Part shown: piece by piece, positions 3,146 through 63,111 of the stretch
Numbering within the stretch: position 1 is the first letter of the stretch
Layout of the letters: every line of letters begins with the position of its first letter
Origin: Bacteroidota bacterium
GTDB taxonomy: Bacteria; Bacteroidota; Bacteroidia; Chitinophagales; Saprospiraceae
NCBI GenBank assembly: GCA_003045895.1
Contig: PZPC01000009.1
Coordinates: 1-64,000 of the forward strand
Direction: 5' to 3'
Length of the DNA stretch: 64,000 bases
Made by a program: the position numbers and the translations under genes
Notes under the pieces: model-generated
Seen by the model: the letters and a program-made list of their open reading frames with translations, nothing else
Told to the model about the DNA's origin: nothing
Databases searched by the model: none

Positions 3146-3165
3146 CAAAAAAGATAAGTTTTTAA

Positions 3166-4527: not shown

Positions 4528-4552
4528 TTCGGTTAGATTCCACCCAAAGGCC

Positions 4553-6406: not shown

Positions 6407-6407
6407 T

Positions 6408-6995: not shown

Positions 6996-7070
6996 ATACC
7001 GCCGCAAAATTATTGCATGGGACGACTTGCCGTAATGGATAAGACCACACAAACAACGAAAAGACAGCTG

Positions 7071-8171
7071 ATGAAATTAGATACACTATTATTTTTATGC
7101 CTATTGATTTTGCTGACTTCGTGCAACGGGCAGCCCACTTCTCAGGCCGGGCAGAAAATTTCCAGCGACCAAACCACCACTATTGCCTTAGGGGACACCG
7201 TTTCAGAACTCGACAAAAGTACCTGGATTGTTTTTCAAGACAAGCACAACAACTACTGGTTCGGGAGTGATGGACAAGGCGTTTATCGCTATGATGGCAA
7301 CATCATCCTTCGCTTTTCAACTGAAGATGGGTTGCTAAGTAACAAAATAAGAGGAATTCAGGAAGACAATTCAGGCCACGTCTTCATTACCACCTTGGAA
7401 GGTGTCAGCAAGTTTGACGGAAAAACATTTACCACATTATCGGTAACAGAAGATAATGAATGGAAGCTGGACCCGGATGATTTGTGGTTTTCCGTATTGG
7501 GCAAAGCAGGAGAGAGCGGGCCTTACCGATATGACGGCAAAATCTTGCACCATTTGAAATTTCCAAAACACTACCTGGAAGACGCGTATAATGCCGCAAA
7601 CGGGAAGCACCCCTGGAGCCCTTATGAACCTTATTCTATTTACAAAGACAGCAAAGGGAATATTTGGTTCGGCACTTCCGAATTCGGAATTTGCCGGTAC
7701 GATGGAAAATCGTTAAGCTGGATGTACGAAAAACATTTGACTTTAATAGAAGGCGGTGGCTCTTTTGGCATTCGTTCCATTATCGAAGACAAAGAGGGGA
7801 AATTTTGGTTCTGTAATACCAGCTATCGCTACGATATCCTGCCAACTGTTTTAACTGAACCGGATAAAATCTTAATAAATTACCAGCGAGAAGAAGGAAT
7901 TGGCAATTTTAAGGGCCCCGAAGGAAAGGAAATGATTTACTTCATGTCCGTTGTCGAAGACAATAATGGAGACCTGTGGATGGTGACTTACGAACAGGGC
8001 GTTTGGCGGTATGATGGTAAAAGTGTAACCCATTATGTGGTCAAAGATGGTTCTAAAGCTATTACGCTATTCTCTATTTACAAAGACCAACAAGGTGTCC
8101 TATGGCTCGGTACACATGAATCAGGAGCATATAAATTCAATGGGGAGACCTTTGAAAAATTCAAGCCATGA
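7071..8171 (+). CDS. Lipoprotein with two-component-regulator-propeller repeats
   Basis: A 366-aa lipoprotein, with the start placed at ATG 7071 because MKLDTLLFLCLLILLTSC is a complete lipoprotein signal with the lipid-accepting Cys18. The mature part consists of Reg_prop beta-propeller blades, with recurrent NYWFGSDGQGVYRYDG, GNIWFGTSEFGICRYDG, GDLWMVTYEQGVWRYDG and GVLWLGTHESGAYKFNG. In hybrid two-component sensors such blades form the periplasmic ligand-binding part, but here there is no membrane helix, kinase or output domain after the propeller. It is therefore a free-standing surface or periplasmic propeller lipoprotein. It starts 75 bp after the acetyltransferase gene. Confidence 0.85.
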   Translation: MKLDTLLFLCLLILLTSCNGQPTSQAGQKISSDQTTTIALGDTVSELDKSTWIVFQDKHNNYWFGSDGQGVYRYDGNIILRFSTEDGLLSNKIRGIQEDNSGHVFITTLEGVSKFDGKTFTTLSVTEDNEWKLDPDDLWFSVLGKAGESGPYRYDGKILHHLKFPKHYLEDAYNAANGKHPWSPYEPYSIYKDSKGNIWFGTSEFGICRYDGKSLSWMYEKHLTLIEGGGSFGIRSIIEDKEGKFWFCNTSYRYDILPTVLTEPDKILINYQREEGIGNFKGPEGKEMIYFMSVVEDNNGDLWMVTYEQGVWRYDGKSVTHYVVKDGSKAITLFSIYKDQQGVLWLGTHESGAYKFNGETFEKFKP

Positions 8172-8632
8172 TTGCAGTAAGAAGCGCAGTTATTTTGGCG
8201 CGGAGTTTAATTTTTGCCCTGATCATTATTTTCAGCCTAATTGCGGATATTTCAAGATCCCAGTGGTAGGGATTTTAACCAGTGGGCCAATCGTTGAGCT
8301 GCGACAAACCAGGCCCTGGCCGACCACACCTCCCCCTTGATTTTTTAGCCATGCCCCGTTTCCGTCTTTTATCTTAGATATTATACGACAAAAGAATTTT
8401 ATTTGGAAAAAAAAGTTGATGCCGTGTTTTATTAAATTTTGACGCAATGTGTTGACAGTCTTGCCTTTGACTTTTTTTTATGTGCCGCTTAAAAACTGGT
8501 AAAAGATTTTATCTTTACTCCGTAAGCTGCTTGAAATCCCCTGTCTAATGATGAGATCAATACCTAATATTTCTACTTGGAATAGGGAGTTTAGGAGCTT
8601 TGTTTAGTTTACTTTCAAAAAAAAGCACTAGT
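8172..8632 (+). other. Intergenic region, probable susC promoter region
   Basis: No supported gene. A near-consensus Bacteroidota -7 element, TATCTTTA, lies at 8510-8517, in an AT-rich stretch about 115 bp upstream of the susC-like start, so a promoter with a long leader is plausible. The more GC-rich part, 8250-8340, contains a partial direct repeat (CCAGTGG twice) and may be a dispersed repeat fragment, but I cannot name it. Confidence 0.3.
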
Positions 8633-11600
8633 ATGAAAAAACAAAACCGCACCGTATTGTGCCTGCTTTTCTTTGCCTTGTCGGTTAGTCTGATGGCGCA
8701 GAGTAAAGTTACCGGCAAAGTTACCGATGAAGCAGGTGATGCCTTAATAGGTGTCAACATCTTGCTTGAAGGAACATCCTCTGGAACGATTTCCGATCTG
8801 GATGGCGCTTACAGCATTACCGTCCCTTCACCAGCATCCGTTCTTATTTTTACCTACACGGGGTTCGAACAAGTCGCCGTTGTAGTGGGTAGCCAATCGG
8901 TTATTGATGTAAAAATGGGCGAAGATTCCCAGCTCCTAGACGAAGTAGTGGTCGTCGGTTACGGTTCTTCCAGTAAGCGGAACCTTACCGATAACGTGGC
9001 CAAGATTGACAGCAGGGCCCTGGAAAATGTGCCCATCTCCAATTTCCAGTCGGGTCTTTCTGGCCGGGCTGCTGGTGTACGCGTTACCCCCAACAATGGT
9101 AAGGTCGATGCGGGGATGAACATCCGCGTGCGAGGTACCTCAAGTATCAGTGCGGGTACCGATCCGCTTTATGTGATTGATGGCATTCCCTTGATTAATA
9201 TCGACGAATCCAGTGGAACCGCGGGCCCGCTTAATCCTTTATTGTCCCTTAGCCCAACGGAAATTGAGTCTATCGAGATCTTGAAGGATGCCAGTTCTGC
9301 CGCCATCTATGGGGCGCGCGGCGCAAATGGCGTAGTCCTGATTACGACCAAAACAGGAAAAAAAGGCAAACCCTCCGTTTCACTCAATATGTCCACCGGC
9401 GTCAGCTCTCCTACCAATACGGTAGAGTGGCTGAATACGGAACAGTACCTGGAATTCTTCCGGGAAGCGGCCGCCAATACGGGTGAGTCGGACTATATCG
9501 AAGATTTGTTTGTCAGCCTCAGTGGAGACAATGCCGTGGGCGCAGTCGATACCGACTGGAACGACGAAGTATTTCGCCAGGGTTCGCAGCAAACGGTTGA
9601 CTTTTCAGTTTCTGGTGGCGATGGCAAGACCTCCTATTACTTTGGCGGTGCGTACAACGACACCGAGGGGATTATTCTGGGCAATAACCTGGCGCGCTTC
9701 AGTAGTCGGGTGAACGTAAGCCACAACTTCAATGATCGCTTTCTGGCGGGCTTGAATTAGGGTATTTCCAAAACCAGTGTCGACCGGGTAGCCAATGACA
9801 ACGCTTTTGTTACCCCACTGCAAGCTATTGCCCAGTCTCCTTTATCTCCGGCACGCAATGCCGACGGCACGCCCTACTCCGGCACTTTGTATCCGAATTT
9901 CTTGCTCGAATACGACTATGCCAACCTGACCAGCAATATTCGGCGCGCCACCGGAAAAGCCTTTGGGCAGTATAAAATCCTAGACAACCTGAAGTTTAAC
10001 AGCGACTTCGGTTACGATATGAGTTACACCACGGAAGACCAATTTCGGGGTAGCCTCACCCCTTTCCAATCCACCAATGGGGAAGCCTACGCACAAAACT
10101 CCATTACCGAGAGTTATGTGTTTTCCAACTACTTCACGTTTACCGAAGAAATTGGGGCTAGCAGTGCCTTGACCCTGATCGCAGGTATGGAATACAACAA
10201 TACCGACCGTACGTTTACCAGCGTTACGGGAACGGAATTTCCGTCGGATGATTTCCAGACGATCAACAGTGCGGCAGAGATTACGGCGGGCGCGGGCTCC
10301 AGAACGGCCTACAACTTTTTGTCCTACTTCGGTCGGGCAACGTTCCTGATCAAAGACAAGTACGTCTTTAAGGCGAGTGTTCGTCGGGACGGTTCTTCTC
10401 GCTTTGGCAGCAACAACCGTTTCGGTACGTTTCCTGCAGTCTCCGCCGGTTGGATCATTTCCGAAGAGTCTTTCTTTGGCAAAAACAAAACGTTGCCTTT
10501 CCTTAAGCTGCGGGCCAGCTATGGTCAGTTGGGCAACTCTGAGATTGGTGACTTTCCTTCTCGATTCCTATTCTCTGGGGTATCCTACAACCGCGTACCG
10601 GGTCTTGCGCCAACGCAACCCGGCAACAATGACCTGACCTGGGAGAAATCCACCCAGGTGGATGTGGGCATCGAATTTGGTTTGTTTAGCAACCGTATTT
10701 CTGGCGAGCTGGACTACTACACCAAAGAAACGGATGGCCTGTTATTTAATGTGCCGCTACCTGGTAGCTCTGGTACCAGTTCTATCAACCGAAATATTGG
10801 CGTATTGGAAAGCACGGGTATTGAGCTGGTGTTGAACAGCCAAAACGTCAAAGCGGGGGATTTCTCCTGGGTTACGAGTTTCAATATTTCCAATTATAAA
10901 AATGAAATCAAGACCTTGCCAAACGAGGGCTCCGACATTGTCATTGGTCGCAATGTCAATCGGGTAGGGGAAGCGGTGTTGTCTTTCTATATGCCAGAGT
11001 ATGCGGGGGTAGATCCAGATAATGGCGATGCACTGTATTACATCAACGGTTCTGATGGCTCCCGGGAAACGACTAATTCTATCAGCCAGGCCAATAGAAT
11101 AGTAGCCGGCCAGCCAAATCCCGACTGGATTGCAGGTTTGACCAACACCTTGGCCTACAAAGGACTGGAACTTGATTTTACCTTCGTTGGCGAATGGGGT
11201 GCCAGTATCTACAATGCTGGTGGCCGCTTCCAGTCGGCTAATGGCAACTTCGAAGACAATCAGTCTATTGACCAGTTGAACAGGTGGCAAAAACCAGGTG
11301 ATATTACGAATGTGCCGCAGGCTCGTCTTTATGGTTTCAATGGTTACGGCCACTCTACCCGTTGGCTCAACGACGCCAGCTTTATTCGTTTGCGCAATCT
11401 GACGCTGGGCTACAATTTACCCGCCAGCATATTGGATCGGCTGGGCTTCTCTAGCCTTAAAGTCTACGCCGCAGGTTCGAACCTATTGACTTTCAACGAC
11501 TTCCCCGGTTATGACCCCGAGGCTCGTGAGGATTCTTTCGATGCCGGCGCGGGTGAACCTTCGGGTATCGCTAGCGGTCAATCTTTCTATTCTGCCCCCT

Positions 11601-11641
11601 TGTCCAAGACCATTATTTTTGGTCTAAACATTAACTTCTAA
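8633..11641 (+). pseudogene. SusC/RagA TonB-dependent transporter interrupted by one TAG
   Basis: An outer-membrane SusC-type receptor of about 1002 codons. The start at ATG 8633 gives a signal peptide ending SLMAQ, a carboxypeptidase-like domain (GKVTDEAGDALIGVNILLEG), the TonB-box region (LLDEVVVVGYGSS), a plug with VRVRGTSSI-like and PLYVIDGIP motifs, and a beta-barrel ending in a C-terminal aromatic strand (TIIFGLNINF). The frame is intact except for TAG at 9758-9760 (codon 376): AGLN, stop, GISKTSVDRV. Reading continues in the same frame on the other side, where homologues usually have a hydrophobic residue such as Leu (TTG), one base away. It is either a nonsense mutation, a suppressed amber codon or a sequence error. 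susD follows after 11 bp. Confidence 0.85.
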
Positions 11642-11652
11642 ATCAGCACGCA

Positions 11653-12969
11653 ATGAAATTTCAATATATAATATTATTTGCACTGCTAAGCTTGTGGTCT
11701 TGTGAAGACAAGCTGGAATTAAATCCCGAGCAGTCGATATCAGGTGAAGTAGCACTATCTTCGGAAGCGGGAATAGCTAATATTCTCATCGGTGCTTACG
11801 ACGAAACTGGCCAGGCTGCTACCCACGGTGGTCGCCTGCAAGTGATCAGTGACCTACTCGGAACAGACGACCAGGCTTCCTGGAGAGGTACCTTCGCTCA
11901 GCCTGCTGAAATCAGCATCCGGGTCATCCTGTCCGACAACTCATTTGTTCGCGATTTCTGGAACAACGCCTACGAAGTCATCAACCAGTGTAACCTGGTA
12001 CTAGACAACCTGGCTATTGTAAGCGATGAGAAAAAGGGATTGTTGGAAGGCGAAGCACGGTTTTTGCGGGCGCTGAATTATTTTGAGCTCAATGCGCATT
12101 TTAATGCCGAAGGCAAAGGGGTGCCGCTTCGTCTTAAAGGCATCTCGGACTATGCGGTGGATCTGTCCATTGCGCGGGCTCCGACCGCTGACGTGTATGC
12201 CCTGGTGTTGAGCGACCTGGCAACGGCGGTCAATCTCCTGCCAGCCGACAATGGCTTCTTTGCGGACAAATATGCGGCGCAGGCACTGCTGGCCCGGGTA
12301 AACCTCTACCTGGGTAATTATGCTGCCGCCAGGGATGCCGCGCACGACGTACTCGAAAACAGTGGCCACAGCCTGGCAGCTGACTTTGCGGGGGCGTTCA
12401 ACAACAATTCGGATGGGCCCGAGGATATTTTCGCTATGCAAGTAACCTCGCAAACGGGGAGTAATGAGTTGATCACTTTCTATGCCTCCCAAGGTAATGG
12501 CGGCCGGGGTGGCGATATCACCATCAACGACGAATACGTAGCCTTGTTTGACGACCCCAACGATGAGCGTGCTTCCTTCTTTTATACGAGTCCGCAAAAT
12601 GGTGGCCGTCTGACCAGTAAGTACACCAATCAGTTCGGGAATGTGCCCATTTTACGCATCGCTGAAATGCACCTGATTCGTGCGGAAGCCAACTTAGAAC
12701 TAGGCACCAGCATCGGTTTGGCACCACTGGATGAGATCAACGCACTGCGTGGCCGTTCTGGTGCAGGTGCATTGCCTGGCATCAGTAAAGCAGCCATTCT
12801 GTTGGAGCGTCAATTGGAGTTGGCCTTTGAAGGCTTCCTAATACACGACATCAAAAGATCAGGCGGAAGCGTAGCTGGCATTCCCGCCAGCGACCCCCGC
12901 CTGACTCTGCCCATCCCGATTGCCGAATTGGATACCAACCCGTTGATGGAACAAAATCCTGGTTACTAG
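11653..12969 (+). CDS. SusD/RagB-family nutrient-binding outer-membrane lipoprotein
   Basis: A 438-aa lipoprotein with signal MKFQYIILFALLSLWSC (Cys17). SusD features are present in order: ELNPEQSISGEVALSSEAGI at the N-terminus, the NNAYEVINQCNLVLDNL helix, GEARFLRALNYFELN at about residues 130-145 (TPR1), a TPR-like ALLARVNLYLGNYAAA, and a C-terminal LRIAEMHLIRAEANLELG with ELAFEGFLIHDIKR. It pairs with the adjacent SusC to capture and import an oligosaccharide, peptide or similar ligand. No glycosidase or sulfatase gene is nearby, so the substrate cannot be predicted. Because the SusC gene carries an in-frame stop, this subunit may lack its channel. Confidence 0.92.
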   Translation: MKFQYIILFALLSLWSCEDKLELNPEQSISGEVALSSEAGIANILIGAYDETGQAATHGGRLQVISDLLGTDDQASWRGTFAQPAEISIRVILSDNSFVRDFWNNAYEVINQCNLVLDNLAIVSDEKKGLLEGEARFLRALNYFELNAHFNAEGKGVPLRLKGISDYAVDLSIARAPTADVYALVLSDLATAVNLLPADNGFFADKYAAQALLARVNLYLGNYAAARDAAHDVLENSGHSLAADFAGAFNNNSDGPEDIFAMQVTSQTGSNELITFYASQGNGGRGGDITINDEYVALFDDPNDERASFFYTSPQNGGRLTSKYTNQFGNVPILRIAEMHLIRAEANLELGTSIGLAPLDEINALRGRSGAGALPGISKAAILLERQLELAFEGFLIHDIKRSGGSVAGIPASDPRLTLPIPIAELDTNPLMEQNPGY

Positions 12970-13017
12970 AAGCAGGCCTTTTTCTCCAATGGCTGCAATC
13001 TTAGAGAAGCGCTAATT

Positions 13018-13051
13018 AGCGGCACTATGTTTCGATGTAGTGCCGCTTTTA
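13018..13051 (+). terminator. Terminator after the susCD pair
   Basis: A 10-bp perfect stem, AGCGGCACTA (13018-13027) with TAGTGCCGCT (13038-13047), around a 10-nt loop, followed by TTT and AATT. It is placed 48 bp after the susD stop. Confidence 0.7.
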
Positions 13052-13110
13052 ATTATCCCCCCAAATGATTAACCAGGATCATCCCGGTCTGTGACCGAAA
13101 TGTAATACGC

Positions 13111-13118
13111 TATATTTG
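13111..13118 (+). promoter_or_regulatory. Bacteroidota-type -7 element
   Basis: TATATTTG fits the TAnnTTTG consensus of Bacteroidota sigma-A promoters and lies 13 bp before the ATG of the ATP-grasp gene. It implies a very short leader. No clear -33 TTG is seen at the usual distance. Confidence 0.55.
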
Positions 13119-13131
13119 CACCTAAAAACAA

Positions 13132-13992
13132 ATGCTAAAAATAGCCCTTCTGACCTGCCAGCATTGGCCGGGTGCCCTGGCGGCTGAACACCTGTTTGCC
13201 AAGGAATTTCCACCTCAGTACGAGGTCCGGGTGGAAGTCTGGAACGACTCGTCGGTAAAATGGTCAGCTTATGATCTCCTGATCTTCCGGACAACTTGGG
13301 ATTATTTTAACTATCCCGTCGAATTCGACGCCTGGTTGGATACCATCGACCGGCAACACATCAAGACCCTTAACCCGATTCCTATCGTCAGGCGCAACCA
13401 GCATAAGTTCTACCTGCAAGACTTGCAAGACCAGGGTGTCGACATCATTCCGACGGTTTTTATCCCCAAAAACACGGGCCTGGACCTCTCGTTTCTGGCA
13501 ACAAACAATTGGACACAGGCCGTCATTAAACCCGCGATCTCGGCGGGCGCTTACGCAACGACGCTTTTCTCAAGCGATGATAGCGATAAAATAACCGCGG
13601 AGTATGCAGAAGTTGCGCTGGAACGCGACCTCCTGGTGCAGCCTTTTATGCCCGAAATTCAGTCGCAGGGCGAGATTTCGCTGCTGTTTTTCAACGGGCA
13701 ATTTTCGCATGCTATTTTGAAAAAGCCGCAAGCGCATGACTTCCGGGTGCAGTCGCAATTTGGGGGGGATTACCAAATCTACCACCCCGCTGCGTCGTTG
13801 ATTGACACCGCTGCGCACATTGTCCAAATCTTTGGCGAGCAGCTCCTGTACGCCCGGGTAGACGGTATTCTAAAAGCAGGCAAATTTTTGTTGATGGAGG
13901 TCGAACTGATTGAGCCCGACTTGTACTTTAGTCAGGTGCCCGCAGCGAAGGGTCGGTTTTTTGCGGCATTGGAGGAACTGGTGGGCGGTTAG
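13132..13992 (+). CDS. ATP-grasp domain ligase (RimK/DcsG-like)
   Basis: A 286-aa cytoplasmic protein with the three-part ATP-grasp layout. The N-terminal pre-ATP-grasp domain has LLTCQHWPG and YDLLIFRTTWDYF. The central part holds the nucleotide-binding strands QAVIKPAISAGAYATTLF and LLVQPFMPEIQSQGEISLLF. The C-terminal metal-binding segment is YARVDGILKAGKFLLMEVE followed by LIEPDLYF, where the ME.E.I.P pattern supplies the magnesium ligands. The overall shape resembles the group containing DcsG (O-ureido-D-serine cyclo-ligase) and RimK-like ligases. The reaction would be ATP-dependent joining of a carboxylate to an amine; the substrates are unknown. It is a single gene with its own promoter element. 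Confidence 0.8.
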   Translation: MLKIALLTCQHWPGALAAEHLFAKEFPPQYEVRVEVWNDSSVKWSAYDLLIFRTTWDYFNYPVEFDAWLDTIDRQHIKTLNPIPIVRRNQHKFYLQDLQDQGVDIIPTVFIPKNTGLDLSFLATNNWTQAVIKPAISAGAYATTLFSSDDSDKITAEYAEVALERDLLVQPFMPEIQSQGEISLLFFNGQFSHAILKKPQAHDFRVQSQFGGDYQIYHPAASLIDTAAHIVQIFGEQLLYARVDGILKAGKFLLMEVELIEPDLYFSQVPAAKGRFFAALEELVGG

Positions 13993-14069
13993 CGGTAATG
14001 GAAAACGCTATCCTCGAATCCAGGAAAATAGACATTGATGAGTGGTAGCATATAAATAAGTAAGAGCCG

Positions 14070-14179
14070 GGACAATAATAAATTTACATGCTCAAATTAT
14101 TAGCGAAGGAATAAGCGATTGATAATGAGCGGTTTCGAACTAATCATTTGAGTCAAAAAATGTAAATTTATTATTGTCC
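14070..14179. repeat. 110-bp palindromic (MITE-like) element
   Basis: The outer arms GGACAATAATAAATTTACAT (14070-14089) and the exact reverse complement (14160-14179) are 20-bp perfect inverted repeats. A second imperfect pair continues inward: CTCAAATTATTAG (14091-14103) with CTAATCATTTGAG (14140-14152), 12 of 13 matching. The centre also begins CGAA and ends TTCGAA, so nearly the whole element folds into one stem. Outside the arms, ATAAGTA (14055-14061) and TACTTAT on the right extend the symmetry loosely. No coding capacity is present. The rest of the gap, 13993-14412, shows no supported gene. Confidence 0.7.
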
Positions 14180-14412
14180 AAATACTTATCGGTGATACCA
14201 CTACAATAGATTTCCAGAATGAACTACCCAGAATATTAACTTTCTAGTATTTTCCACAGCATATCCTCTAGCATTTGCAGGAATTCGATTGATTTTTTTA
14301 TAAAAAAGCCTTATTTTGCCCAACAAGGGGGATGTTGTCATGCCATTAAAAACATCAAAAACAAGGAAGGAAAGATCAAGCGTGTCAAATGATAAGACAT
14401 TAGCAATAAAGA

Positions 14413-15114
14413 ATGACAATTATAAAATCAAAAAAACTACTGATTGATGAAAAATTTACTTTTGATATAAGTGAACTAACACTTGTGTTGGAAGAAAGGA
14501 ATGATATCATTAACAACTATAAAGGTATTAGATATTTGTTTTCTGATCAAAGTGATTTTGAGTTCAAATCGTTTGTGAAATTTTTATTAGAACAATTGAT
14601 ATCAGGGGATAAATTTATATATCTATTTTTCTCTGACAGATTTATTGAAAACAAGGATAGAATAAGAAGTTATCAGAAACTTTTCTACAAGGAAAGAAAT
14701 AAATTTGGCCGAAATAATAGCAAAGAGTTAGAAGTCGACTTAAATGATGATACATCAATAATAACAGGCATTGTAAAATTAGAAGAAAATAATTTGAACT
14801 ATTTGACAGAAAGACTTTTCTCCAGCGACTTTACTTTTTTATTCGAATCGTCTGTTGACAAAAAAGAAATTCTGTGTGAGGACTTCCTTCTGTCGATAAA
14901 AGAAAAGGGTTTGATGATAAGCGATATGAGGTATTTGAACCCGTTAAAGACTTTATTAGAACATAAGCGTCAGATTGATTCCGTAATGTATTTACAAGGT
15001 TTTGGAAACAATGACCAATCTGTAGAAATGCTCACTAAGAAAACTGAATTAGAGAAATTCCTTAATACCGCTAAGGAGTATCAGAAGAAAAATCTATTGA
15101 TAAGCTTGAATTAG
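14413..15114 (+). CDS. AT-rich orphan protein of unknown function
   Basis: A 233-aa soluble, highly charged protein (many Lys, Glu, Asp, Phe). It has no signal peptide, membrane segment or motif that I recognise. Predicted features are helices rich in Lys/Glu at the C-terminus (LTKKTELEKFLNTAKEYQKK) and an N-terminal half with short strands (KFTFDISELTLVLEE). Base composition is far more AT-rich than the genes on either side, and a fold-back element lies 234 bp upstream, both consistent with recent transfer. I do not assign a function. The start at ATG 14413 is the first in frame. Confidence 0.65.
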   Translation: MTIIKSKKLLIDEKFTFDISELTLVLEERNDIINNYKGIRYLFSDQSDFEFKSFVKFLLEQLISGDKFIYLFFSDRFIENKDRIRSYQKLFYKERNKFGRNNSKELEVDLNDDTSIITGIVKLEENNLNYLTERLFSSDFTFLFESSVDKKEILCEDFLLSIKEKGLMISDMRYLNPLKTLLEHKRQIDSVMYLQGFGNNDQSVEMLTKKTELEKFLNTAKEYQKKNLLISLN

Positions 15115-15316
15115 AAAGGGGCGAGTATAGTGCAAGCGTCCGACAAACTCCACAAAAAGACGCCTAAAAATCAGCGCCAGGTCAAAATAAACAGGGCCAA
15201 CTGCCAATTATTTCATTATTTTGCCTGCCGGTTAGCCGATCGGGATAAGCGTATACCGCTTCTTTTCCTGCTAGGCCTGCCATCACCATAAGAAATTATC
15301 TAATCCATCTTTGCAT

Positions 15317-16777
15317 ATGAGTCGTTTTGTCCAGAAGTTTAGTTTATTCACCGTGCTGTACCTGGCCACTTGCTTTTCCGGGCAGGCCCAGTTTTTTTTA
15401 AACGGCAATGCCGTGGCGACCAACGACAGCTGCTTTCAGCTTACCGCTGCGGTAAATACCCAGGCCGGATCCGTATGGAATGGCGAAAAGATAGATTTGA
15501 ATGTGTCTTTCGATATCTTGGTCGACCTGTTTCTGGGCTGCCAGGACATGCTCGGCGCCGATGGCCTCGTTTTTGGTTTGCAGCCTGTCAGTACCTCCAT
15601 TGGCGGTAGCGGAGGAGATATCGGTTTTGGCAACGTACAACCCTCGCTAGGGGTGGAATTTGACACCTATCAGAACCCTGATTTTGGGGATCCCAGCTAC
15701 GACCACATCACCATTATCCGGGATGGCAACCTCAATCACAATACCCCCCAGGGAGCGCTAGCCGGCCCCATTCAGGCCAATGCCGCTGATCCCAATATTG
15801 AGGATTGCCAATACCACCCCTTGCGCATTACCTGGAATGCGGATACGCAAACCTTCTCCGTCTACCTGGACTGTGTCCTGCGCCTAACCTATACGGGCGA
15901 TCTGGTGAACGATATTTTTAATGGCGACCCACTGGTGTTTTGGGGCTTCACCTCCGCTACCGGCGGACTCAACAATGTGCACGAAATCTGTTTTTCCTAT
16001 ACGTCATTTCTGAATGAACTCGTCGACCAGACCATTTGCCCCGGTTCGGCTATTCAGCTGGAAGCCAGTGGCGGGATCACCTACCTCTGGTCGCCCACTA
16101 CCGGGCTGTCTGACCCTGCTATTCCCAATCCCATTGCCACCCCCGAAGAAACGACTTTGTATACCGTAGAAATTCTGGACGATTGCGGCATTCCCTTTTA
16201 TGACGATGTATTGATCACGGTAGACAATGATCAATTTGCCGTCAACCTGGCGATCACCCCGCCGGGTACGGAAGCTTCCCCGGGCACGGAACTGAGTTTA
16301 AGTGCCACGGTGGATCCTGCCGGGGCCGAAAATTACACCTATTCCTGGTCGGCAGCCCTGGGCAGTGCTATTGCCGACCCAGGGGCACCGACGACCACCG
16401 TAATCACCTCGCTGGAACGATCGGGCACCGAAACGTTTACCGTCGTCGTCACCTCACCAACTGGCTGCGTACAAGAAGCCAGTATCAGCATTCAAATCCG
16501 GGGCGGGCTGTATCAAATCCCCAACATCTTCTCGCCCAATGGCGATGCCGTGAACGACGGCTTTGGCTTATTTACCCAGGCGGAGCTGGCCAGCTATTAT
16601 TGCAAAATCTTCAACCGCTGGGGACAAGTCGTTTTTGAATCCAGCAGTCCTGCTGAATTTTGGGATGGCACCTTTAAAAACGGCGCTGCTCCGGCCGATG
16701 TGTACACCTACGTGATGAACTTTCAAATCGGAAACCTCCAAATCGAAGAAAAAGGGGCACTCACGTTAATGAGATAA
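15317..16777 (+). CDS. Secreted L-type-lectin-like protein with T9SS type B sorting domain
   Basis: A 486-aa secreted protein. The ATG at 15317 is preferred over a TTG two codons upstream, and a near-consensus CATCTTTG lies just before it. After the signal peptide (ending SGQAQ), residues about 25-230 form a bacterial L-type (legume-like) lectin domain, with GADGLVFGLQPVS, PSLGVEFDTYQNPDFGDPSY, DHITIIRDGN and PLRITWNADTQTFSVYLD. Ig/PKD-like domains follow (residues about 235-395). The C-terminus is a type B T9SS sorting domain: IPNIFSPNGDAVNDGFG, then CKIFNRWGQVVFESS and FWDGTFKNGAAPADVYTYV. It would be exported by the type IX system and bind surface glycans. Confidence 0.9.
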   Translation: MSRFVQKFSLFTVLYLATCFSGQAQFFLNGNAVATNDSCFQLTAAVNTQAGSVWNGEKIDLNVSFDILVDLFLGCQDMLGADGLVFGLQPVSTSIGGSGGDIGFGNVQPSLGVEFDTYQNPDFGDPSYDHITIIRDGNLNHNTPQGALAGPIQANAADPNIEDCQYHPLRITWNADTQTFSVYLDCVLRLTYTGDLVNDIFNGDPLVFWGFTSATGGLNNVHEICFSYTSFLNELVDQTICPGSAIQLEASGGITYLWSPTTGLSDPAIPNPIATPEETTLYTVEILDDCGIPFYDDVLITVDNDQFAVNLAITPPGTEASPGTELSLSATVDPAGAENYTYSWSAALGSAIADPGAPTTTVITSLERSGTETFTVVVTSPTGCVQEASISIQIRGGLYQIPNIFSPNGDAVNDGFGLFTQAELASYYCKIFNRWGQVVFESSSPAEFWDGTFKNGAAPADVYTYVMNFQIGNLQIEEKGALTLMR

Positions 16778-16785
16778 TCAGGAAC

Positions 16786-17343
16786 ATGAAAAAGGAGTTG
16801 TCACCAACACAACGGGAAGAACTACTTCGCACTTTAAAAAACCGCTTTGAGCACCACCCCAACCGCCACCAAGGGCTGGAATGGGAGAAGGTGCAGGCCC
16901 GGCTGGAGCTGCAGCCGGAAAAACTGTGGTCGCTCCACCAAATGGAAAGCACGGGAGGGGAACCAGATGTGGTAGGTCAGGATCAAAAAACGGGCGAGTA
17001 CCTTTTTTACGATTGTTCGGCGGAAAGCCCCCCAGGTCGCAGAAGTGTGTGCTACGACCGGGAAGGGCTGGAGTCGAGGAAAGACTACAAACCCGCGAAC
17101 AACGCCGTGGATATGGCTGCGGCCATGGGCATCGAACTGTTGACGGAAGCACAATACCGGGCGTTGCAGGAATTGGGAAATTTTGATGCGAAAACATCGA
17201 GCTGGCTGAACACACCTCCTGCGATCAGACAACTCGGTGGGGCCATTTTTGCTGATTTCCGCTACAACCAGGTCTTCGTGTACCACAACGGTGCGCAATC
17301 TTACTATGCAGCCCGGGGGGTCCGTGGCTCGCTGAGGGTTTAA
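16786..17343 (+). CDS. DUF4256 family protein
   Basis: A 185-aa cytoplasmic protein that covers the complete DUF4256 domain. Recognisable parts are KNRFEHHPNRHQGLEWEKV, MESTGGEPDVVGQD, a central YLFYDCSAESPPGRRSVCYD, DMAAAMGIELLTEAQYR and the C-terminal ADFRYNQVFVYHNGAQSYYA. The family is widespread in bacteria and has no known function. It follows the lectin gene by 8 bp and may be read on the same transcript, although a functional link is not obvious. Confidence 0.88.
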   Translation: MKKELSPTQREELLRTLKNRFEHHPNRHQGLEWEKVQARLELQPEKLWSLHQMESTGGEPDVVGQDQKTGEYLFYDCSAESPPGRRSVCYDREGLESRKDYKPANNAVDMAAAMGIELLTEAQYRALQELGNFDAKTSSWLNTPPAIRQLGGAIFADFRYNQVFVYHNGAQSYYAARGVRGSLRV

Positions 17344-17444
17344 CGGCCAGTTTTCGGCCCAAAAACAGTCATAAATCCATCTTATACCACCTCATAAGCT
17401 ACAAAACTGCTAAATTAGCTGTTCACCAATCGCACATCCCGCCT

Positions 17445-18026
17445 ATGGCACGAATCAAACTATCCGACGAGTTCAAGGCGGCCGTGAGCAAAATGCCGGT
17501 AAAAGAGAAAGAGAAGTTGCTGTTCCGCCTGCTGGCCAAAGAGCCCGCGCTGGTCGCCAAACTGGAATTCGAACTACTGGAAGCCGGTAATACCACCGAA
17601 GAACGGCGAGCCGACCTGCAACAACAGATCGCCAAGACCCTGGACAACGCCAACCGCTACTTCTACTCACCGGGCTACCTGCTGCTCGACCTGCGCGCCC
17701 TGAGCGGCGAGATCACCCGCCACGTAGCTACCACCAAAGACAAGTACGGCGAGATCGCCCTCAACTTGTTTATGCTCAATACCGCCCTCGACCTCATGGG
17801 AGACAAAATCCGGGGCTTCTCTTCCCAAAAATCCAATACCCTCGATACCTACGTCGTCAAGCGGGCCTTGAAATTGCTGGCACTGCTGGCCAAAATCCAC
17901 CCCGACTACCAACTGGATTTCCTGAACGACAGGAAAGCACTTGGGAAACACATCGGCGGACTGCACAATATGATGCGCGCCGCCATCTTCAATGGACTGG
18001 ACGTGAATCTGCTGCTGGAGGGATAG
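17445..18026 (+). CDS. Uncharacterised helical protein
   Basis: A 193-aa soluble protein, almost entirely helical, with no motif that I can name. It has a basic N-terminus (MARIKLSDEFKAAVSKMPVKEKEK), a Leu-rich middle (YLLLDLRALSGEITRH) and a conserved-looking TKDKYGEIALNLFMLNTALDL. It ends HIGGLHNMMRAAIFNGLDVNLLLEG. Codon use is like its neighbours and the start ATG at 17445 is clear, so the coding call is firm. It lies 70 bp upstream of the EEP phosphatase gene in the same direction and may form a two-gene unit with it. Confidence 0.75.
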   Translation: MARIKLSDEFKAAVSKMPVKEKEKLLFRLLAKEPALVAKLEFELLEAGNTTEERRADLQQQIAKTLDNANRYFYSPGYLLLDLRALSGEITRHVATTKDKYGEIALNLFMLNTALDLMGDKIRGFSSQKSNTLDTYVVKRALKLLALLAKIHPDYQLDFLNDRKALGKHIGGLHNMMRAAIFNGLDVNLLLEG

Positions 18027-18096
18027 CTGCCCCAGCCAGTTTTTGCTGGTCCTTACCAAAAGAGAACAAGTCTAATAACCACGCAAATCTATCTCG

Positions 18097-19053
18097 ATGT
18101 TACAGTACGAAATACCTGAAATTGCCCTCCAGGAATTGAACAGACTGGAAGACGCTCTCGACCAGCGCATCCCCGCCAAAATAGTCGACCGCAACCTCAT
18201 CATTGCCACCTGGAACCTCCGCGCTTTTGGCGATGTCACCCGCAAATGGAATTCGGATAAAACAGACTCTCCGCGGCGCGATTACCATTCGCTGGAGATC
18301 ATCGCCCGCATTATTCGTCGCTTCGATGTCATTGCCCTCCAGGAAGTGAAGGCCAATATCCGCGCCCTGCGCGATATGCTGAAGATACTGGGCGAAGAAT
18401 GGAGCTTTATCCTGACTGACGTTACCGCCGGCGATGCCGGCAACGGCGAACGGATGGCTTACCTCTTTGATACCCGCCGGATCAAACTCTCCGGACTGGC
18501 CTCTGAATTGGTCGTGCCCCAGGAAGAACTGGACACCATTGCCCCCGATGCCCTTACCAAGCAGTTTGCCCGCACACCCTATGCCGTAAGCTTCCGCAGC
18601 AAGGATACCACCTTTATCCTCGTTACCCTGCACATCCTCTACGGGTCTTCGGCCAAAGACCGGATTCCGGAATTGAAAGCCATTGCCGACTGGATGGCCC
18701 ACTGGGCAGCCAATGTCAACAGCTACGACCAAAACCTGATTGCCCTGGGCGACTTCAACGTGGAAAAACGCGGCGACCTCCTCCACCAGACCTTTATCTC
18801 CAGCGGGCTGTTTATTCCGCCCGACCTGGCCGAGGTCACCCGCAGTATTTTCGACTCCAGCAAGTTTTATGACCATATCGCCTGGTTCAGCAACCGCAAG
18901 GGCGTACCCGAACTGTCGATGCGCTACCTCCGAGGCGGCAATTTCGATTTCCTGCCCTTTGTTTTCAAAAGCCGGGAGCTGACCCCTCAACAAATGTCCT
19001 GGATGATTTCGGACCACTATCCCCTGTGGGCCGAGTTTTCGATGCGGAAATAA
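18097..19053 (+). CDS. Endonuclease/exonuclease/phosphatase (EEP) family protein
   Basis: A 318-aa cytoplasmic protein with a complete EEP core: IATWNLRAFGD (metal-binding Asn), FDVIALQEVKANI (catalytic Glu), FILVTLHILYGSS, NLIALGDFNVEKRGD (Asp-Phe-Asn) and the C-terminal MISDHYPLWAEF (Asp-His). These metal-dependent phosphodiesterases cut DNA, RNA or lipid phosphates. Substrate specificity cannot be told from the motifs. There is no signal peptide, which favours a nucleic-acid or nucleotide substrate. A hairpin at 19131-19155 probably ends the transcript. Confidence 0.88.
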   Translation: MLQYEIPEIALQELNRLEDALDQRIPAKIVDRNLIIATWNLRAFGDVTRKWNSDKTDSPRRDYHSLEIIARIIRRFDVIALQEVKANIRALRDMLKILGEEWSFILTDVTAGDAGNGERMAYLFDTRRIKLSGLASELVVPQEELDTIAPDALTKQFARTPYAVSFRSKDTTFILVTLHILYGSSAKDRIPELKAIADWMAHWAANVNSYDQNLIALGDFNVEKRGDLLHQTFISSGLFIPPDLAEVTRSIFDSSKFYDHIAWFSNRKGVPELSMRYLRGGNFDFLPFVFKSRELTPQQMSWMISDHYPLWAEFSMRK

Positions 19054-57666: not shown

Positions 57667-58349
57667 ATGCGCCACCAACGACTGCTCTTCCTTGCCCTGA
57701 GCCTTGTGGCTTTTCATACCCTGGTTGCCCAACCACTGACCGAACGGCAAGGGTGTCACTTTATGAAAAGCCAGCTGCCACTGAAAAAGCTAACCCTGGA
57801 AGAAACCCAGGCCCTGGTGAAAAGCCAGGAGCGCAGTGACAGCATCAATATCCTGGACTACGCGATCAGCCTGGATATTACGGATTTCAATGGCCGCAGG
57901 ATCGCCGGTTCTACCCAATTGGAATTCGTCTTGCTCGAGGTTGCTACCCGCGAACTGGTGCTCGGGAGGAGTATCCCTACAGCGTCATCAGCAGCTTCGG
58001 CAACGGCGGTCTGGTTCGATTGGATCCCTTGCTGCCCGGCGATTACGCGCTAGCCAATGTGTATCTGAATGTGGGTATCCGCAATCCCCTGGAAGATGCC
58101 AGCGTGGTGCTCTCGCCCAACCCCGCCCAGGACGTCGTTCGGCTAGCGCTCAACTTCCCTACCGTAACGGCCGACTACCAGATACAGCTTTACGACCTAC
58201 AGGGACAGTTGCTGCGCCAGCAAACCTACCCGAAAGCGGCGGAATTGAATGTGGAATGGTCTACAGCCGATCTGCCGAATGGCCTCTATGTCCTAGAAAT
58301 TGCCAGCGGCACGGGGCACCGGTCGGTGGAATTGGTGGTACAACGGTAG
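57667..58349 (+). pseudogene. Collapsed M1-peptidase-like gene with T9SS type A tail
   Basis: Two frames must be joined. From ATG 57667 a signal peptide (ALSLVAFHTLVAQ) leads into RSDSINILDYAISLDITDFN and then GRRIAGSTQLEF, the opening strand of M1-family metallopeptidases. Near 57940 the match ends. In the third frame, from about 57965, EEYPYSVISSFGNGGLVRLD continues into GDYALANVYLNVG and SVVLSPNPAQDVVRLALN, the start of a type A T9SS sorting domain that ends at 58349 (LPNGLYVLEIAS). The HExxH catalytic core is absent and the frames disagree, so a deletion with frameshift has removed most of the enzyme. Confidence 0.7.
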
Positions 58350-58479
58350 CAAGGAATGAAGACGGAGTCTAACCAGGAGGTCTAGCGCAAGGACCAGCAA
58401 AACTAAAAAGCACGCCAGTTCATAGTAAGCTTTTGCTTTCGTTGCGGCACCGCGAACAGTATTAGAGTCCGATTATCAC

Positions 58480-61400
58480 TCAATAATCCCAGTCAATGCG
58501 GTGCTGAGCCAGTTCGGTAGCCGTAAGTTTTTCCAGGTATTCCCAGACCACGCCCTTTTCCCACCGGGCGAAGAAGTTGTGCCAACATTTCACCGACCCA
58601 TCGAGGCTACCGGTGAGCAAGGAAAGCCCGTCGGGTGCGAAGACCACACTGGTGACCCGTTTGGTATGTCCCTGGAACGTGACGAGGGTTTCGCCGTGCA
58701 GGTTCCACAATTTGGCCTTTTTGTCGTCACTTCCGGTAAGCAGGTATTGCCCGTCGGGAGAAAAGGCGACCCTGTAAACGGCTGCCGTATGCCCCTGTAA
58801 TTCGCGCACGACATTCCTCTGAAGGTCCCATAACCGGGCGGTTTTATCGCGGCTACCGGTGAGCAGGGACTGTCCGTCGGGGGCGAAGGCGACACTGTAA
58901 ACCGAGCCGCTATGCCCTTTAAGTTCGCGTATTTTTTTTCCTTTAAGATCCCACAATTTGGCCGTTTTGTCCCGACTTCCGGTGAGCAAGGTTTTTCCAT
59001 CGGGGGCAAAGGCGACACTAAACACAGCCTCCTTGTGTCCCTTCAAGGTGAGGATTTCCTTGCCTTTGAGGGTCCACAATTTAGCTGTTTTGTCCTCACT
59101 TCCGGTTAAAATAAATTGCTCGTCAGCCGAACAAGCCACGCTGAAAATCGGGCCGTTATGGCCAGCCAGGGTGAAGATTTCTTTGCCCTGAAGCGTCCAG
59201 GCTTTGGCTGTTTTGTCGTCGCTTCCGGTGAGCAGGGTTTTTCCGTCGGGGGTGAAGGCCACCGCCGAGAGGTTGTCCTGATGTCCTTGCAGGCATAGCC
59301 GTTCCGTTCCGGTCAGGGTTACCAGCCGGGCTGTTTTGTCGGCTCCGCCCACGAGTACCGTTTGTCCGTCTGGGGCAAACGCCACATCCGCAATGGCAGG
59401 AGCGGATTCTGTCAGATTTCGGATGAGCAACGCCTCGCGGTTCCACAACCGGGCGGTATGGTCTGCGCTACCGGTGAGGATGGACTGCCCGTCGGGTGAG
59501 AAAGCCAGCCCCGAAACATGTTCGGTATGCCCTTGCAGACACAGCAATTCTTCGCCCTGCAGGTTCCACAATTTGGCCACCTTGTCCACACCGCCAGAGA
59601 GCAAGGATTGCCCATCGGGAGCAAATACCACACTGTAAACAGGCCCCTTGTGCGCGGGTATACTCAGGTTGTTTTCTCCTTTAAGGGTCCATAATTTGAC
59701 GGTGCCATCGGTGCTGGCGGTTGCCAACGTCTGCCCGTCGGGGGCAAAGGCGACACTGAAAACGGGGCCGGCATGTCCTTCCAGGCGGTGTATTTCTTTT
59801 CCTTGGGTATCCCATAATATGGCCGTTTTGTCATCACTGCCCGTCAGGAAAGATTGCCCGTCGGGGGCAAAATCCACACTGGAAACCCGCCGGGTATGGC
59901 CGGTCAGCTGCCGTATTTCTTTTCCTTTGCTATCCCACCATTTGGCGGAATGATCCCCGCTGCCCGTCAGGAAAGATTGCCCGTCGGGCGCAACGGCCAC
60001 ACTGAAGATAGCGTCGGTATGGCCTTGCAGGGTCAGCAGCAGCTGGCCTGGCAGGTTCCACAATTTAGCCGTATTGTCGCTGCTTCCGGTTAGGAAAGAT
60101 TGCCCGTCGGGTGCGAAGGCGACACCGAAAACCGGGGCCGTATGCCCGTCGATGTGCCGTATTTCGGCCCCCGTTTGGTCCCACAGCTTAGCGGTATTGT
60201 CCTTGCTGCCCGTCAGGAAAGATTGCCCGTCGGGCGCGACGGCTACGTTGTAAATGGTATCGGTATGCCCGCGCAGCGTTTGCCGGTAAAAAATACTCCC
60301 TTTTTCACTCAGTATATCGTGCAGGGCCGCCAGGCTTTCCTCGTTGGGTGCGTAGCGATGAGCCGCCATGGCCAGGTTCAGGGCCAGGGTAGGGTTGGTG
60401 GAGTAAAACTGGCGTGCTTTGGCCGTACAGGCTGCGCCCTGGGCTTCCTTTTTAGCTTGGATCGCTTCATCGCGCTGGCGTTTGAGGTCCAGAATATCTT
60501 CGATGCGTTTGCGCCAGCTCTCCCGGACAAAATTGGCTTCGGCCTGGTTCAGCCAGTGCTGGCCTTTTTCGAGGTAGATAGCTAGAAGCTGCTCGGAATA
60601 CCCGGACAGGATCAGGGAGTTCAGGTCGGGGAGTTCGCCTTTGTGGTGGCAGTCGTTCCAGAAGGTGGTGAACAGGTCATGGTCTTCGGGCGCAATGTGG
60701 GCCAGGGCACGTGCTATGATTTCGTCTTTGTGGGCCAGCACGTAGGTTTTGGCGGAATTGGACACCTGTTCAATCAGTTGCATCAGTCGGGGATTGGCGT
60801 CCCAGCGCTTGCTGAAGTTAGCGGTCAGGCGCTCGTCAACTTCGAAGCCGTCCGCCGCCGTAGCGCCGTAGCTAAATACTGGTGCGGCCTGGGGTTGCGA
60901 GCTGTCGACAACGGCCTCCCACAGTTGGCGCTGTAGCCGCAGGGTTTCGGGGCCAAAGTCGGCAATCCACTGTTTGGCGGTTTTCCAGTACTGGATGAGG
61001 GCGTCGTGGAGGGGTTCGTAGTAGGCGCCGATTTTATCGTGGCCGCCGATGATCAGCTGCTTTTTTTCGAGTAGGTGGAGGACCTCTTCGACGATGGCAT
61101 TTTGTTGCCCGGGGTAATCGAATTCATTGATAAAATCCCGGTGTTTATCTTCCTGGAAAGCGACGGCTGGCCGCACGTATACCCGCCGCCGTCCGAAGTC
61201 ACCTTCGTTGACCTGGATCATCCGCAGGATCAGCTTGCGCATGACCAACTGGTGGGTAGGGCTGATGGTGCCCAGTTCCTCGTAAATATTATCGGCGTAC
61301 TGGCTCAGGGCGCCATTGATCCCCCCCAGCTTTTTGTAGGCCGCTTCGGTGAAGATGCGTGTATCTTCACTGGTAACTTCGTAAAACCGACTCATCATAA

Positions 61401-63111
61401 ACGAAAGTACGGGCAGTGCACCGGGGGCATTGTTGACCTCCGCCAGGATGGTATTCACCAATTTTTCGGTCTCAAAGTCATAGAGTTCCGCCAGGGCGGG
61501 ATTCACCAGCGCTTCCCGCAGCTCGGCCATTCCGATGGGGGGAACCCGGTAGAGAAAAGTGCCCAGGTTGTCGGCGGTCCAGAAGGTTTGGCCAAAGTCC
61601 GATTCCTCCAGTTGCCATTCGAAATCGGAGCGGAGGGTGATGATAATTTTCAGGTTTTGCTGATCGGCTTGCTGCAAAAGCGCGGTCAGCTTATTTTCAA
61701 AGGGTAGGCGCTCCGTGGCTTTGCTGCAATCGTTGAAGAAGGCTTCGTACTGGTCGATGAGGAGTACCTGTTTTTTTGTGGGATCCAGGTTGGGGAGCAA
61801 GGCCTCCAGTCCGGTGTAGTAGGTGCCTAAGCTGGTACCGTCGGCCGCCAGGTGGGTAGCCACGGCGCCGGTCCAGGCCTGGGCGCCCGGGCAGAGGACC
61901 AGTAGTTCTGCCTGTTCCCACTCCTGCTGGCCATTGTCGTTTTTCCAGGCTCGCAAAGCGGGTAGCAGGCCAGCTTTCACCAGCGAAGATTTGCCGCTAC
62001 CCGAAGGCGCGGTCACCACCAGGATCGGGGTTTGCCGGAGTTTGTTCAGGAGTTCTCTGACGGCGGCCCGGCGGCCAAAGAACAGGTCGAAATCGGTCGT
62101 TTCAAAAGGGCTCAGTCCTTTGTAGGGATTGCGCAAAACCCGCTGGGCAAAGTTGAGTTTGTTGTGGGGGTCGAAGAAAATGAACTGCCCGCCCTGGTGG
62201 TTACCCATGGGAAAAAGGTCGGGATACTGGATTTCGGCGCCGAAATTACCGTCGTTGGTGACGCGCTCAATCTTGTCCCAAAGGTAGAGAAAGAGTTCCT
62301 GGGAGGTGAGTACGCCGTCGCCTAGGTTTCGGCCCGGCGTCTTCAGTTCGGCTTTGCCTTCCAGGGCCTCGATGAGGGCTTCGGCGAAGGGCGAATGTCG
62401 TTGCTCATCGAGCTCCGAGCGGATGCCTATCCAGTCGGCTGCCGTCTGGTGCGGGCCGGCCGAAACGAGGACCTGCCAGGCGCGTTCGCGCTTGAACCGC
62501 GAGAACCGCTCCTCGTAGAGGGGCATATTGGTGACCCAGCCCGCGTCGCGGGTATTTTCGACCACGTGGCGGAATTTGCCCGCAAAACAGCAGTCGAGGA
62601 TGAGCAAGGTGTGGTGGCAGTCGAGGATTTTGAGGGTCTCGAAGACGGTCTCCATCGCCAGGAGGCTGCTGTTCTCCAGCATAGCTTTTTCGGGGCGTGC
62701 ATCCGACGGCAGCAGGTAGCCCGCGGGGCCTTCGCCAAACTCGCCGGGTTTGCCGTGGCCAGCGTAGTAGAAGACGATACAATCCTGCGGGGTAATGTGG
62801 GGCTCAAGGGCGGGGTCCTGGATTCGCTGCAGCAGGTCGCGCAGGGTGTCGCCATTGGCGTCCAGTTGCAGGTGAATACCGGCCAGGTCCGCGGTCAGTT
62901 CCGTGGCCGGCGCTGCCGGGTCAACTCCCAGGAACAACTCCACGTGGTCGAAACCCTGTTGGTACTTGAGTACCCGCGCGATTTCCCGGGCGTCGTTGAC
63001 AGCCGACTTGAGGTCCTTGTTGATCTTGGGATAATGGTTGATCCCAATCACGAAGGCGTAGCTGCGGGGAAAGCCGAGTAACTGACTGCGATTGTTGATG
63101 GGGTTGGGCAT
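58480..63111 (-). CDS. Caspase-STAND NTPase-WD40 protein
   Basis: A 1543-aa cytoplasmic protein in three parts. Residues 15-260 form a caspase-like (peptidase C14) domain with catalytic His119 (VFYYAGHGKPG) and Cys175 in LLILDCCFAGKF. Residues about 335-900 form a STAND/NACHT-like NTPase entered by NPYKGLSPFETTDFDLFFGR, with Walker A APSGSGKSS (about 367) and Walker B VLLIDQYEAFF (about 452), then a helical arm. Residues about 940-1515 hold 14 WD40 repeats, each near 41 residues with a VAFAPDGQSLLTGS-type core, enough for two seven-bladed propellers. This is the layout of NLR-like signalling proteases: repeats sense, NTPase oligomerises, caspase cuts. The target is unknown. No adjacent gene is an obvious partner. 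Confidence 0.92.
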   Translation of the reverse strand: MPNPINNRSQLLGFPRSYAFVIGINHYPKINKDLKSAVNDAREIARVLKYQQGFDHVELFLGVDPAAPATELTADLAGIHLQLDANGDTLRDLLQRIQDPALEPHITPQDCIVFYYAGHGKPGEFGEGPAGYLLPSDARPEKAMLENSSLLAMETVFETLKILDCHHTLLILDCCFAGKFRHVVENTRDAGWVTNMPLYEERFSRFKRERAWQVLVSAGPHQTAADWIGIRSELDEQRHSPFAEALIEALEGKAELKTPGRNLGDGVLTSQELFLYLWDKIERVTNDGNFGAEIQYPDLFPMGNHQGGQFIFFDPHNKLNFAQRVLRNPYKGLSPFETTDFDLFFGRRAAVRELLNKLRQTPILVVTAPSGSGKSSLVKAGLLPALRAWKNDNGQQEWEQAELLVLCPGAQAWTGAVATHLAADGTSLGTYYTGLEALLPNLDPTKKQVLLIDQYEAFFNDCSKATERLPFENKLTALLQQADQQNLKIIITLRSDFEWQLEESDFGQTFWTADNLGTFLYRVPPIGMAELREALVNPALAELYDFETEKLVNTILAEVNNAPGALPVLSFMMSRFYEVTSEDTRIFTEAAYKKLGGINGALSQYADNIYEELGTISPTHQLVMRKLILRMIQVNEGDFGRRRVYVRPAVAFQEDKHRDFINEFDYPGQQNAIVEEVLHLLEKKQLIIGGHDKIGAYYEPLHDALIQYWKTAKQWIADFGPETLRLQRQLWEAVVDSSQPQAAPVFSYGATAADGFEVDERLTANFSKRWDANPRLMQLIEQVSNSAKTYVLAHKDEIIARALAHIAPEDHDLFTTFWNDCHHKGELPDLNSLILSGYSEQLLAIYLEKGQHWLNQAEANFVRESWRKRIEDILDLKRQRDEAIQAKKEAQGAACTAKARQFYSTNPTLALNLAMAAHRYAPNEESLAALHDILSEKGSIFYRQTLRGHTDTIYNVAVAPDGQSFLTGSKDNTAKLWDQTGAEIRHIDGHTAPVFGVAFAPDGQSFLTGSSDNTAKLWNLPGQLLLTLQGHTDAIFSVAVAPDGQSFLTGSGDHSAKWWDSKGKEIRQLTGHTRRVSSVDFAPDGQSFLTGSDDKTAILWDTQGKEIHRLEGHAGPVFSVAFAPDGQTLATASTDGTVKLWTLKGENNLSIPAHKGPVYSVVFAPDGQSLLSGGVDKVAKLWNLQGEELLCLQGHTEHVSGLAFSPDGQSILTGSADHTARLWNREALLIRNLTESAPAIADVAFAPDGQTVLVGGADKTARLVTLTGTERLCLQGHQDNLSAVAFTPDGKTLLTGSDDKTAKAWTLQGKEIFTLAGHNGPIFSVACSADEQFILTGSEDKTAKLWTLKGKEILTLKGHKEAVFSVAFAPDGKTLLTGSRDKTAKLWDLKGKKIRELKGHSGSVYSVAFAPDGQSLLTGSRDKTARLWDLQRNVVRELQGHTAAVYRVAFSPDGQYLLTGSDDKKAKLWNLHGETLVTFQGHTKRVTSVVFAPDGLSLLTGSLDGSVKCWHNFFARWEKGVVWEYLEKLTATELAQHRIDWDY

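Follow-up and report, generated by a model that had tools for sequence, protein, structure and literature searches.

A single open reading frame that joins a caspase, a STAND NTPase and a long array of WD40 repeats raises the question of what such a protein responds to, how its protease might be switched on and how its sensor has evolved. We addressed this for one such gene in a Saprospiraceae genome (contig PZPC01000009.1 of assembly GCA_003045895.1), where the window is the whole 64,000-nucleotide stretch of DNA that was analysed. A preliminary description of this DNA had read the gene as a caspase, a STAND NTPase and fourteen WD40 repeats with all catalytic residues present. Both points held on inspection: the two enzyme families were matched, fourteen blades were counted, and H119, C175 and the Walker A and Walker B motifs are intact, with roles assigned from their families. 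The features are as follows, all on the minus strand.

58480..63111 (-): whole gene, 1543 aa, with caspase, nSTAND1, helical linker, 14 WD40 blades and tail
62350..63063 (-): Peptidase_C14 (caspase) domain with the predicted dyad H119 and C175, E 1.7e-19
62755..62757 (-): predicted catalytic His119 codon, in YYAGHGK (aa 115-121)
62587..62589 (-): predicted catalytic Cys175 codon, in LDCCFAG (aa 172-178)
60910..62127 (-): nSTAND1 NTPase and winged-helix part, aa 329-734, E 4.2e-76
61984..62010 (-): Walker A motif, APSGSGKSS (aa 368-376)
61744..61767 (-): Walker B motif, VLLIDQYE (aa 449-456)
60433..60474 (-): helical linker, aa 880-893; sensor-exchange boundary, at which identity to the relative G448 stops
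59410..60270 (-): WD40 blades 1-7 (propeller 1)
58549..59409 (-): WD40 blades 8-14 (propeller 2)
58483..58584 (-): conserved C-terminal tail, WHNFF..WE.G..WEYL.KL..I.WDY

The frame at 58480-63111 (-) runs uninterrupted from ATG to stop. Its p20 domain with a His-Cys dyad places the protease among the Peptidase C14 metacaspases and orthocaspases, for which cleavage after Arg or Lys is described (PMC6426788). Walker A and B, a winged helix with the putative motif EPLHDAL (aa 699-705), an N-terminal effector and a C-terminal repeat sensor are those of an NLR-like STAND protein, and the three domains follow one another in a single chain in the order of caspase-NACHT/STAND-WD40 proteins. The columns of H119, C175 and K374 do not vary in either of two alignments, one of 12 rows and one of 10. 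The WD40 family was matched at E 4.3e-157, and the blades number exactly 14, each of 41 aa, over aa 948-1521. The same number recurs with other N-termini, exactly 14 blades being detected in 6 of 80 nSTAND1 loci (L069, L073, L079, L085, L098 and L133). No N-terminal signal was apparent in the protein by eye, and we therefore take it to be cytoplasmic. The 5.57-Mb genome holds 13 caspase matches and 8 nSTAND1 matches (7 over the cut-off), yet this locus is the only one to combine the two in one gene. Elsewhere in the genome, at C75:1-20000 (L049), four tandem long genes with caspase matches lie at 3504-18744 (-). In two of these, at 3504-7043 and 10927-14457, a signal-like N-terminus is followed by the WD40 matches (12 and 14 detected) and finally by the caspase, the reverse of the window gene, and the blades of the two match one-to-one.

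The preliminary description had also proposed two seven-bladed propellers, and modelling agrees with this. The 14 blades form two such propellers in an AlphaFold2 model of the WD40 region (mean pLDDT 86.5, dropping at the junction of blades 7 and 8), which matched a seven-bladed designed WRAP (WD40-type) propeller over 286 residues at an rmsd of 0.8. At a pTM of 0.54, the model does not fix how the two propellers sit relative to each other. The best structural match of the sensor model was 2ymu, a highly repetitive propeller (44% identity), and full-length Apaf-1 came within the top six. Confidence in the model of the chassis, as we call the caspase-nSTAND1 body up to the linker, was moderate (pLDDT 72); its Foldseek matches were metacaspase 9, MALT1, CED-4, Avs4, NLRC4 and NOD2, with TM-scores of at most 0.20 by query length. 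A single-sequence search for a solved close homologue of the caspase part gave no match at E 0.01, and an alignment profile of this part gave weak metacaspase matches (best E 1.6e-5) together with two guanylate kinases.

Our preferred reading, to which we give a probability of roughly 0.6, is a solitary, probably cytoplasmic NLR-like caspase receptor that would be activated by proximity and would probably serve invader-triggered death. Caspase-STAND-WD40 proteins of bacteria are frequently compared with the apoptosome as its relatives, yet to our knowledge neither trigger nor substrate is established for this kind. For the window protein we infer the following course, from trigger through oligomerisation and protease activity to substrates and outcome. 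The two WD40 propellers and the tail would keep the nSTAND1 switch closed and would bind the trigger, most likely an invader protein or a damaged cell component. The switch would then load ATP and oligomerise via its STAND domain, and the N-terminal caspase domains, once brought together, would become active and cleave substrates in trans. Cleavage would lead to death or growth arrest, with neighbours protected. Within the family, the sensor would have changed by replacement of the whole module together with slow turnover of WD40 blades.

The case for module replacement comes from relatives of the chassis. These are patchily distributed: when 398 family genomes were searched at E 1e-60, a match was present in 23, counting the window's own; copies per genome are lower bounds, given that the best 5, 7 or 2 candidates per genome were scored in the chassis and solo-caspase searches. 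The closest protease-switch body is that of G448, a gene truncated at its 5′ end by the edge of the contig, and is 60% identical over aa 112-893. Beyond this boundary the two proteins gave no match better than E 0.08, and no WD40 blade was detectable in G448. The C-terminus of G448 resembles that of G002x (42% identity) and two stretches of G003x (33-38%), yet the chassis of both are further from that of G448 than the window's is. No synteny between G448 and the window was found outside the gene, the G448 contig stopping within it.

The module in which G448 ends, shared with the more distant chassis of G002 and G003 and here called KGPH after its 'KGPH...FGHYNP' pattern, is unnamed, of about 200 aa, and occurs either free-standing or fused to a caspase-nSTAND1 chassis (L186:7784-8491 (-); G002, G003). 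It is present in 22 of 199 family genomes, has no Pfam family over the cut-off and, at E 1e-6, was not matched in the window's genome. Of the 26 KGPH matches, 16 fall within open frames 234-290 aa long, with a stop read through in six, and longer frames contain others.

In a tree of 34 chassis rows, which omits fragments and members without part of the chassis (G023, G048, G058 and the second G017 locus), the window protein and G448 are sisters (100/99). Two further groups, the three WD40 proteins of G026 and G002x with G003x, fall elsewhere, and the deeper forks that join these groups are weak (52/24 and 58/54). AU tests, on groups picked after inspection of the tree, rejected a single KGPH clade (p 3e-67) and a single clade of the window protein with G026 (p 3e-4). 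Because the tree and the AU tests conflict with sensor type, we place at least two sensor changes on the tree. Since the basal member G033 also has WD40, the change may sit in the lineage of G448 and not in that of the window gene.

Other members behave in the same manner. The tandem copies G002a and G002b are 79% identical up to aa 818, and G002b and G001a are 73% identical up to aa 761; in both pairs nothing past that point matched at better than E 0.2. Moreover, the chassis protein G001c has a DM9 C-terminus, and the tandem copies of G026 have 14, 7 and 12 detected blades. Replacement is not universal, since the C-termini of G001a and G003c are still related (28% over 528 columns); G002x and G003x can be aligned nearly end to end. 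By sequence comparison the family looks like a receptor with a constant chassis and, from about aa 893, a replaceable sensor end. The variable sensor of the preliminary description is thereby supported within the family, where the sisters differ in sensor module.

The window gene is solitary among housekeeping-type genes. A T9SS-type protein, a desaturase and a radical-SAM gene lie 3′ of it, the nearest being convergent, and the next gene upstream is divergent; the latter is proline-rich and TonB-like by reading alone, and the stretch scanned matched no family. No operon with a solo caspase or a kinase was seen, and there is no adjacent same-strand gene, the one observation here that bears on a possible gasdermin partner. 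A T9SS-sorted protein (57667-58372 (+)) appears to be divided between two overlapping frames, 57667-58053 and 58020-58349, the second with Por_Secre_tail, possibly as the result of a frameshift or sequencing error. Further away, G+C drops sharply to 30% at 14001-15000 and to 36-41% at 3001-6000, and these stretches are possibly foreign DNA; from 9 kb on, the remaining 1-kb steps lie at 48-63%. Searches with PADLOC models matched parts of the window protein, namely a caspase model (E 2.6e-12), mad8 (4.5e-5) and, via the WD40 part, HEAT-ARM_XIII (E 1e-45, the best stretch covering 172 of 1972 profile positions). No PADLOC model covered the whole protein and none of the four neighbouring proteins scanned gave a match, with no sign of a defence island; the gene thus lacks both marks by which we would have counted it as an anti-phage system.

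The surroundings of related genes bear on a different explanation, possible but in our view doubtful, in which the caspase-nSTAND1-sensor protein is the initiator of a two-tier cascade. The initiator would activate a solo caspase as executioner, LytS/LytTR genes would set expression, and the partner of the window protein would come from another locus. A separate solo-caspase homologue was present in the fetched stretch of 15 of 28 clusters and a LytS-type kinase above 100 bits in 9 of 28, the window's cluster being counted and having neither. In these counts the query sequences came from 4 of the 15 solo-caspase and 3 of the 9 kinase clusters, clusters with early contig ends are retained, and the clusters are related and so not independent. 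The solo-caspase rate is nevertheless well above the chance of about 5% for a caspase in a 20-kb stretch, a rough estimate from 13 caspases of any kind in 5.57 Mb. The 13 clusters without a solo caspase, the window's included, speak against the cascade, although some lack one through contig ends, and the window's genome does have two solo-caspase homologues, on contigs C45 and C70. The solo caspases are of 632 to 1135 aa (most 632-817) and mostly of the DCCHSG/DCCHAG type, but several are degenerate (DCCYAA in G017 and G303, and no motif found in G164), and they also exist in genomes without a chassis match, such as G007 and G015. Our control was not clean: of the seven other nSTAND1 places in the window's genome, five without a fused caspase had no solo caspase at the locus, but a further nSTAND1 match is located on C70, some 11 kb away from a solo-caspase homologue. 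The kinase and regulator of G026, which would supply the control of expression, were typed as His_kinase and Response_reg-LytTR. At L053:11107-13928 and L062:293-3255, a LytS-type histidine kinase (in L053 with TPR) and a LytTR-type regulator lie directly before the solo-caspase and caspase-nSTAND1 genes.

Orthocaspases have been proposed to act in stress or developmental signalling, and WD40 proteins also serve as housekeeping scaffolds. The window protein could be a signalling protease of this kind with a fixed cellular ligand and no invader sensing, and we would be somewhat surprised if it were. Its solitary position among housekeeping-type genes, the two-component neighbours of its relatives and its blades, which are old and not freshly shuffled (see below), all agree with such a role. 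However, sister proteins differ in sensor module, tandem copies carry different C-termini and the spread is patchy (23 of 398 family genomes, own included), all of which speak against it.

On the age of the blades the preliminary description is not supported. It had described several blades as sharing one string of 14 residues and had taken recent duplication and repeat shuffling to be likely. The string 'VAFAPDGQSLLTGS' was found once in the protein (APDGQSFLTGS occurs four times), and the median pairwise identity of the blades is 51%. Among the 91 blade pairs the median dS is 1.84, none falls below 0.4 and 25 are saturated. An internal identity above 60% is one yardstick of recent amplification (PMC9218822), and highly repetitive WD40 arrays are described as 70-100% identical with mostly low dS (PMC5587647). 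The window array lies below both the 60% limit and that of 70% with low dS, although the looser limit of 0.4 in PMC5587647 would still class it as young. A codon test based on usage elsewhere in the gene gave little excess, whereas the within-array shuffle gave a real but partial one: the excess DNA likeness was reached by 0 of 2000 shuffles, was strongest in pair 3-4, which lay above all 2000 family-wise, and amounted to 19% (0.19) of the possible excess. The longest run common to blades is 33 nt (pair 1-3), against a shuffled maximum of 32. Since the DNA excess is partial while dS is high and identity 51%, we conclude that duplication or conversion of blades happened, but not lately. On the strength of identity, codon shuffles and dS together, we reject blade duplication in recent time. 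For contrast, the nSTAND1-WD40 locus L079 of Sorangium cellulosum So ce26, likely a recently amplified array, has blades of 74% identity, strong codon identity and an excess of 0.50 in the codon test.

One-to-one conservation of blades between species, which the preliminary description had named as evidence against itself, was not seen for blades 1-13, either against G026a (p=0.11; chassis 49% identical to the window's) or against G026c (p=0.57). Inclusion of blade 14 changed these values to p=0.012 and p=0.16. Blade 14 and the tail are conserved and, at E 1e-6 among 60 genomes, were found only in the window gene and the three G026 paralogues. The best matches of the window blades lay within their own protein in 10 of 14 cases (compared with G026a) and 14 of 14 (compared with G026c). 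As a control, the C75 paralogues of the window's genome gave a diagonal of 0.688 against 0.541 when shuffled (0 of 20000), 7 of its 12 rows peaking on the diagonal. This pair is far closer (caspase parts 83% identical) than the window protein and G026, and therefore the test has low power on distant homologues. An older turnover of blades is plausible, the lack of a diagonal favouring it without proving it. The shuffling proposed earlier may thus stand as an old process, as judged by a weak test, and does not stand as a recent one. No DGR was found near the gene; the one RVT_1 match in the genome (E 0.001) is on C28, with none on C11, and the array lacks the nearby reverse transcriptase of a DGR-diversified sensor. 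That the sensor is a recently amplified, fast-evolving WD40 array, as first proposed, is highly improbable, for although the shuffle result of pair 3-4, the 33-nt run, the missing one-to-one match to G026 and the internal best matches would fit it, the dS values, the median identity and the contrast with Sorangium all oppose it.

The architecture itself is already known. Metacaspase-NACHT-WD40 proteins were described in 2012 as widely distributed, including in Haliscomenobacter hydrossis (Bacteroidetes, 28 metacaspases); the same source also describes multi-metacaspase operons from four groups of bacteria, Bacteroidetes among them (PMC3501461). The domain order of the metacaspase-NACHT-WD40 proteins is that of the window gene, but the NTPase is NACHT there and was typed nSTAND1 here. 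Sensor exchange and solo-caspase neighbours are the additions of the present analysis. LypABC, of the bacterial CARD-NLR-like receptors, likewise brings together protease and STAND/NLR-type ATPase parts, which are needed for host lysis, but its peptidases are trypsin-like and the system extends over three genes, compared with one gene and a caspase in the window (PMC13236601). The EACC1-associated caspases (NF047832; PMC7159879) resemble the window family in having variable C-terminal domains, STAND included. However, the window gene scored 53.5 bits against the NF047832 cut-off of 140 and, as it has no adjacent same-strand gene, falls outside that group. Caspase and STAND proteins from related conflict systems have also been described with variable or diversified C-termini (PMC7159879, PMC10907252, PMC8195603). 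For the sensor, 7 and 14 are peaks in blade number (PMC9218822), and at 51% the window blades are below the limits of 60% (PMC9218822) and 70% (PMC5587647) for highly repetitive propellers. Avs is represented by Avs4 among the structural matches of the chassis model. Like the window protein, the Apaf-1/CED-4 apoptosome has a STAND switch and two WD40 propellers; Apaf-1 matches the sensor model and CED-4 weakly matches the chassis model. It differs in that the caspase of the window protein is fused in the same chain and the STAND family is another. Among the matches listed, a small share of all those in the open-licence literature, no paper was by title or start of abstract on the chassis proteins studied here.

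In summary, the window gene encodes a caspase-nSTAND1 chassis with intact motifs and a 14-blade sensor, in a family whose sensor end has been exchanged. A larger picture can be drawn, which we consider unlikely as a whole, of a bacterial apoptosome of the Saprospiraceae. One caspase-STAND chassis would carry interchangeable sensors (WD40 pairs, DM9 or KGPH) at a fixed linker and would initiate a separate executioner caspase set by LytS/LytTR; KGPH may be a captured target or decoy, and the window gene would be a member without a local executioner. The features worth following are the sensor exchange at the level of the family and the recurrent solo caspase. Sister members with the same chassis and different sensors are natural sensor-swap pairs for finding triggers, and the recurrence of the solo caspase makes a two-step bacterial protease cascade testable.
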